A stretch of DNA of 64,000 nt. Source: an uncultured Dehalococcoidia bacterium. GTDB lineage: Bacteria; Chloroflexota; Dehalococcoidia; Lucifugimonadales; UBA1127. The translations under genes were made by a program, and so were the position numbers. Of this stretch, positions 39,920-64,000 are shown piece after piece. Within the stretch, counting starts at the first letter, position 1. Each line of letters begins with the position of its first letter. A model generated the notes under the pieces. That model was not told where the DNA came from. It saw only the letters and a program-made list of their open reading frames with translations, and made no database searches. The stretch lies in contig CAJWXP010000001.1 in NCBI GenBank assembly GCA_913049785.1, positions 44,956 to 108,955 of the forward strand, in the 5' to 3' direction.

Positions 39920-40266
39920 TGCGAAGGTAGTAGCTTCTGTCTTATTCACCGTGTGACCTCGTGGGGCTTCAAATCGCTCAATGCCTACTATTCAGTGTGG
40001 CTTTGCGCTCGCGAAACTCTATTTCTCCAAAGTTTCCCACGGGCATCCTGCCCAGAACACCTGTCGATTGGTTTCAAATAAATTTCCAACAAATTTCCCC
40101 AACTCGAAATCAATCGACTGGTTGTTCTCGACTAAAACCGCCCAGATCCATCCATGAAGCCATTGCGCCCAGGGTTTGGTAGAATGCCGTTGCCGTTCCT
40201 CCATAAGTCGTCGCGCATGTTGGCGCTCCAGACGACCGTAGCTTGTTGGTCAGGGGTGTGCAGGCT

Positions 40267-63092: not shown

Positions 63093-63767
63093 ATGGCTTG
63101 GATCAAGACGATCACAGACGAAGAGGCCAAGGAGCTTGGCGGAGAATACGAAGAGGCTTTTGCTAAGGTGCGTGAGGTGACCAACTCTGATAGGGCTGGT
63201 GGAGGGCCTCCTGGGCTTTCCAGCTTAAATCCGTATTCAATGATGCACGCAAAAGAGTTCATGCAGCACATCATGCGCGGCCCATCTGGGGTTACAACCC
63301 AACAGCGGGAAATGGTGGCAACTGTCACCTCACAAGTCAACAACTGCAAGTACTGAGCCGTTGCACACGCAGGGGCCCTGCGTAGAGAAGGTGCAGACGA
63401 CTTGATTGCTGAGAATATCCAGAACGATTGGCGGAAGGCCGACCTTACAGAAGCGGAATACGCGATGTTGGAATGGACTGAGAAGATCTCTCTGACTCCG
63501 GCAATGTGCACCGAGGAAGATGTTCAAAAGATGCGGGACGTTGGTTGGGCGGAGCGGGATATCGTTGATATTGCCAACGTCTGTGCCTACTTCAACTTCA
63601 GGGTCAGGCTCGTTGATAGCCTGGGATTGGAGTTGGGTGAGGCGATGGTGGAATACGCTCTAGAGCATCGGGAGCATGCTGCGGAACTGGCTGCAGAGCG
63701 AGGTTCGGCAGTGCCCATAGATGCATGGGGTTTGACTCAGAAGGAAACAGCAACAGCCAGGCACTAG
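63093..63767 (+). CDS. AhpD-like / carboxymuconolactone decarboxylase-family peroxidase-related protein; candidate selenoprotein with CXXU motif (in-frame TGA at 63354-63356)
   Basis: MAWIKTITDEEAKELGGEYEEAFAKVREV...QREMVATVTSQVNNCKY[TGA]AVAHAGALRREGADDLIAENIQNDWRKADLTEAEYAMLEWTEKISLTPAMCTEEDVQKMRDVGWAERDIVDIANVCAYFNFRVRLVDSLGLELGEAM...; both halves are in the same frame. Confidence 0.85.
63363..63394 (+). promoter_or_regulatory. Candidate bacterial SECIS hairpin
   Basis: GCAC-ACGCAGG-ggc-CCTGCGT-agagaag-GTGC: 7-bp perfect upper stem, 3-nt loop starting GG, loop begins 17 nt after the TGA. Confidence 0.6.
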
Positions 63768-63781
63768 AATCAGGACTTGGG

Positions 63782-63815
63782 AAAAGGGCCTTCCCATTAT
63801 GGGGAGGCCCTTTTC
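63782..63815 (+). terminator. Rho-independent terminator
   Basis: AAAAGGGCCTtCCC...GGGGAGGCCCTTTTC hairpin shortly after the AhpD-like stop codon. Confidence 0.8.
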
Positions 63816-63899: not shown

Positions 63900-64000
63900 A
63901 TGGCGAAAATGATCTACCAAGTGCGCCTTATCATCAAACCCGAGTACGAGAAAGAGTTCAACGAGTGGTACGAGGGCTGGTACATTCCCAAGCTCATGGC
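63900..64000 (+). CDS. Start of a hypothetical protein, truncated by window end
   Basis: ATG then AKMIYQVRLIIKPEYEKEFNEWYEGWYIPKLM open to the window edge. Confidence 0.55.
   Translation, partial: MAKMIYQVRLIIKPEYEKEFNEWYEGWYIPKLM

Follow-up and report, generated by a model that had tools for sequence, protein, structure and literature searches.

Evidence for a bacterial SECIS hairpin in an AhpD-like selenoprotein gene of an uncultured Dehalococcoidia bacterium

The AhpD-like gene, its family and its host genome

The window (the whole 64,000-nucleotide stretch analyzed here) contains, toward its 3′ end, an open frame that is continuous only if one TGA codon is read through. The features at this locus are as follows.

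63093–63767, plus strand: AhpD-like/peroxidase-related selenoprotein gene, 224 codons through the TGA (TIGR01926, CMD)
63345–63368, plus strand: active-site motif C-K-Y-U-A-V-A-H (Cys85, Sec88, His92), aligned to CxxC-x3-H relatives
63354–63356, plus strand: in-frame TGA, predicted selenocysteine codon (position 88), shared by 68 homologous sequences
63367–63383, plus strand: predicted bacterial SECIS (bSECIS) hairpin, 7-bp stem and GGC loop, from sequence, folding, conservation and covariation
63790–63807, plus strand: possible rho-independent terminator, weak (one found versus 1.1 expected by chance)

A purine-rich GAAAGGGGGAGAGG lies directly 5′ of the ATG, and the 224-codon frame ends at a TAG stop (63765–63767). 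Reading with the standard code splits the gene at the TGA into ORFs of 87 and 121 amino acids. The full-length product matches TIGR01926 (peroxidase-related enzyme; 122 bits versus a cut-off of 81.8, E = 2.4e-35) and Pfam CMD (E = 1.4e-9). Its AlphaFold2 model is all-helical (pLDDT 92, pTM 0.89), and a Foldseek search with that model matched 3c1l and 6k40 at an E value of about 5e-9. The CKYU-AVA-H segment aligns with the CxxC-x3-H of these two solved relatives, with U opposite the second redox Cys of the Cys homologues; Cys85, position 88 and His92 are invariant among 30 homologues. Downstream of the selenoprotein gene, an ORF starting MAKMIYQVRLIIKPEYEKEFNEWYEGWY lies within window positions 63900–64000 and is cut by the contig end.

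A single-protein scan of contigs returned distant relatives only, and homologues were gathered by genome search instead. Matches occur in 90 of 250 genomes of the order, mostly with exactly one in-frame TGA. Homologues at 54–61% identity over positions 1–220 each carry one such codon, and TGA stands at the corresponding position in five family genes of the bacterium's own genome and in up to six in genus relatives. With identical sequences merged, the set used below comprised 68 distinct TGA-bearing sequences from the same order. Some of these genes are adjacent: four AhpD-like Sec genes lie in tandem in each of two genomes of the genus (L017, L022, L025 and L033 at G002:C22:19256-22541; L018, L023, L027 and L032 at G005:C1:2589620-2592904) and a pair, L020/L024, in the bacterium's own genome (C26:28147-29812), all with TGA and a predicted SECIS. 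The literature searched contained no description of such arrays, which hold two to four genes each. Three orthologues from another genus (L044, L045 and L047) have an extra in-frame TAG or TAA beside the Sec TGA.

The host genome (2.15 Mb in 77 contigs, 93% complete) encodes the selA, selB, selC and selD set: selA (550 bits), selB (341 bits; its product contains two SelB winged-helix domains), a tRNA-Sec with anticodon TCA (UCA in RNA), and selD (379 bits), which has its own in-frame TGA. The SelD gene (L013, G000:C35:18184-19104, minus strand) carries an HCAGU motif and appears to be a selenoprotein gene itself; its mRNA contains a hairpin, GCCCAGA-GGA-TCTGGGC, with 7 bp and a GGA loop, 20 nt after the TGA.

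Geometry, conservation and covariation of the hairpin

The original prediction described a perfect inverted repeat, ACGCAGG (63367–63373) and CCTGCGT (63377–63383), and both its letters and its coordinates are exact: the arms form 7 bp within the ORF, just 3′ of the in-frame TGA. As was also predicted, the apical loop begins with GG (GGC at 63374–63376) and lies 17 nt from the TGA. The bSECIS criteria used here call for an apical loop of 3–9 nt with G in its first two positions, an upper stem of 4–16 bp, 16–37 nt from UGA to loop and a minimum free energy of -7.5 kcal/mol or lower. The 17-nt stem-loop by itself folds at -9.6 kcal/mol, and its 3-nt loop, G at loop positions 1 and 2, 7-bp upper stem, 17-nt spacing and intragenic position are all shared with the bSECIS consensus. 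The stem here is perfect and lacks the bulged U that is present in the upper helix of E. coli fdhF. An Rfam search of window positions 40000–64000 did not return a SECIS match.

The stem was recovered when each of four sub-windows was folded as RNA. The minimum free energy of the single sequence was unremarkable compared with shuffles (z -0.4 to -2.05), so energy alone is no proof of function and comparative evidence is needed. Synonymous recoding of the window's own codons kept all seven pairs in only 47 of 5000 trials. Across the 68 TGA homologues the stem averages 6.57 of 7 pairs, versus 4.18 ± 0.11 after recoding with the family's codon usage (2000 trials, maximum 4.56 pairs), and the full seven pairs are formed in 53/68 homologues compared with 0.7% of recoded sequences. 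It had been proposed that homologues sharing the TGA should also conserve the structure, and this held: in a gapless alignment of 53 Sec sequences, 96.2% of stem cells are paired, and RNAalifold recovers the same stem.

The suggested covariance check also came out in favor of the hairpin, with double-sided compensatory changes in four of the seven pairs. The covariation score for the 53 Sec sequences was 0.353, compared with 0.146 ± 0.014 for shuffled alignments (reached in 0/500) and at most 0.102 when the arms were slid; because sequences within a genus are related, the shuffle counts are not probabilities, and the recoding null and the wobble pattern carry more weight. In that pattern, wobble bases of the 3′ arm change along with the 5′ arm. 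Beside Ala (GCA), Leu is encoded by CTG in 25/28 sequences, and beside Gly (GGA/GGG) by CTC or CTT in 38/38, an association with a Fisher p of 3e-15 when relatedness is ignored; the Phe codon is TTC after GGG (21 sequences) and TTT after GAG (10/11). Judged from these sequence comparisons, chance is ruled out as the origin of the hairpin.

The loop is conserved as well. Position 1 is G in 64/68 homologues and position 2 always U or G (68/68), in agreement with the G[G/U] apical-loop rule of the published bSECIS model (PMC13188914). The published thresholds, as coded here, admit 51 of the 68 Sec homologues; the other 17 fall outside them, mostly because their folding energy does not reach -7.5 kcal/mol. 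A covariance model of the element, searched against the genome, gave five strong matches, followed by a gap in E value from 4.7e-8 to 1.25. These matches fall at the five AhpD-like TGA genes, and no other match approached significance, which indicates that the model is specific to the SECIS of the AhpD-like family rather than to all SECIS elements.

The one part of the prediction that held only in part concerns the outer arms, GCAC and GTGC, which can pair in this sequence but are not conserved among the 68 homologues. Pairing family-wide is 41.5% of cells, compared with 30–46% when the partners are slid by 1–3 nt. The outer arms were therefore rejected as a conserved part of the element, their pairing being at chance level, and the lower stem is not conserved.

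Relatives that have lost selenocysteine

Homologues without Sec provide a natural control: the structure is kept with Sec and relaxed without it (53 Sec versus 12 non-Sec sequences). In the 12 (Gly, Glu or Cys at the site), 53.6% of stem cells are paired, and 1 of 13 non-Sec relatives is within the bSECIS constraints, as opposed to 51/68 Sec sequences. Seven genes (L070–L075 and L077; six with Gly and one with Glu at the Sec codon) form one clade that is nested within the Sec genes with support of 100/100; Sec gave way here to Gly and not to Cys. There the hairpin has decayed while the surrounding peptide is still similar; on the evidence of these alignments, hairpin decay accompanied the loss of UGA. 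A selA gene was present in 15/15 genomes checked of the order with this clade (14 above cut-off). A weaker control than the Gly/Glu clade is given by the five Cys relatives, since these are distant and have a different peptide after the motif.

Separately, the stem is weakened (broken) in L053, L083 and L084, Sec genes that are close relatives of one another. They are also Sec relatives of L076 (G217:C27:3908-4321), a gene close to the Sec genes in which TTA (Leu) replaces the TGA.

Interpretation, alternatives and significance

The hairpin at 63367–63383 is, with high confidence from comparative sequence analysis, a bacterial SECIS carried by an AhpD-like selenoprotein mRNA. The claim that it favors UGA recoding over a random nonsense mutation is borne out by a stem that is conserved and covarying and by complete Sec machinery in the genome. 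The contrary possibility, that the inverted repeat arises only from the coding of HAGALR, without any RNA function, and the TGA from a nonsense mutation or a sequencing error, draws on the conservation of the HAGALR peptide and on a single-sequence energy within the shuffle range. Against it, synonymous recoding breaks the stem (4.18 versus 6.57 pairs), wobble bases change in step with the arm they face, and Gly/Glu relatives have lost the stem although their peptide is similar. The by-product reading is refuted by the covariation and recoding tests, and a mutation or error is hard to reconcile with the same TGA in 68 distinct homologues and conserved coding sequence after it; taken together, this account is very improbable.

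A strong stem just 3′ of a stop codon could alternatively act as a terminator, an attenuator or a translational pause, giving a truncated 87-amino-acid product and no Sec insertion. We consider this very unlikely. A U-run is absent 3′ of the hairpin, the truncated product would stop just short of the redox residue, and the hairpin is largely lost wherever the TGA is lost. Moreover, purifying selection acts on the codons after the TGA as it does on those before it (in L016–L018, for example, dN 0.06 and dS 0.39 downstream, dN 0.09 and dS 0.43 upstream), which argues that the region after the TGA is translated. Structure-stimulated readthrough exists, and near-cognate suppression or reassignment might place another amino acid at the UGA, in which case the hairpin would stimulate readthrough in a general way. 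None of our computed results favors such a scheme, and the presence of SelA, SelB, SelD and a UCA-anticodon tRNA-Sec, the location of the TGA at the second redox Cys position and a loop that fits the SelB-type G[G/U] rule (PMC13188914) all speak against it; we regard it as highly unlikely too.

If the hairpin is a SECIS, SelB-GTP-Sec-tRNA-Sec(UCA) would bind the stem-loop by way of the C-terminal winged-helix domains of SelB, with recognition of the apical G-G/U, and would deliver Sec-tRNA to the ribosome as the UGA (63354–63356) reaches the A site. The UGA would then be decoded as selenocysteine and translation would run on to the TAG at 63765–63767. We infer both SelB binding to the hairpin and Sec insertion at the UGA from sequence. 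The predicted product is a 224-residue all-helical protein of the AhpD fold in which Sec88 would take the place of the second Cys in the CxxC-x3-H redox center. In AhpD, that second Cys is the peroxidatic position. By analogy with the family the protein is presumed to be enzymatically active, and Cys85 and Sec88 probably carry out selenenylsulfide chemistry that reduces peroxides or a similar substrate.

The 2005 Sargasso Sea survey (PMC1088965) gave the first report of AhpD-like CxxU selenoproteins, which were found again in the GOS survey in 2008 (PMC2398784) and are listed in a 2026 review as AhpD-like protein, TIGR01926, CxxU (PMC13188914). The present gene shares with them the family model, the CxxU motif, the placement of the TGA at the second redox residue and a bSECIS just downstream; each testable defining feature was found, so the gene belongs with this known group. 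It differs in sequence details only (the GGC loop; five members in one genome, two of them in tandem). The alkylhydroperoxidase-related (seleno)protein (CFYUT) family NF041238, also a CxxU selenoprotein family in the review (PMC13188914), has a related CMD/AhpD domain and a C-x-Y-U-T motif in its name, but the present protein scores 51.8 bits versus a cut-off of 175 and is therefore not a member.

The case is well supported and largely ordinary, since this kind of selenoprotein has already been catalogued. Two leads are mildly new: the tandem arrays, which reach four genes in sister genomes, and the Sec-to-Gly clade. One speculative reading, which we think improbable, is that the CxxU AhpD-like family of this lineage has expanded in tandem and diversified, possibly toward non-peroxidase chemistry, and that one sister clade has gone from Sec to Gly, giving up the redox residue and keeping the protein. 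Reductive dehalogenation is an example of such chemistry, named because the CMD-family debrominase Bmp8 has the same fold.

Standard-code annotation would split this gene at the TGA; once the SECIS is recognized, a complete redox enzyme is recovered, together with four similar ones in the same genome. As the element overlaps a conserved peptide, the family offers a comparative set in which RNA and protein constraints may be separated codon by codon, and the homologues form a natural series in which Sec is lost and the hairpin has decayed.
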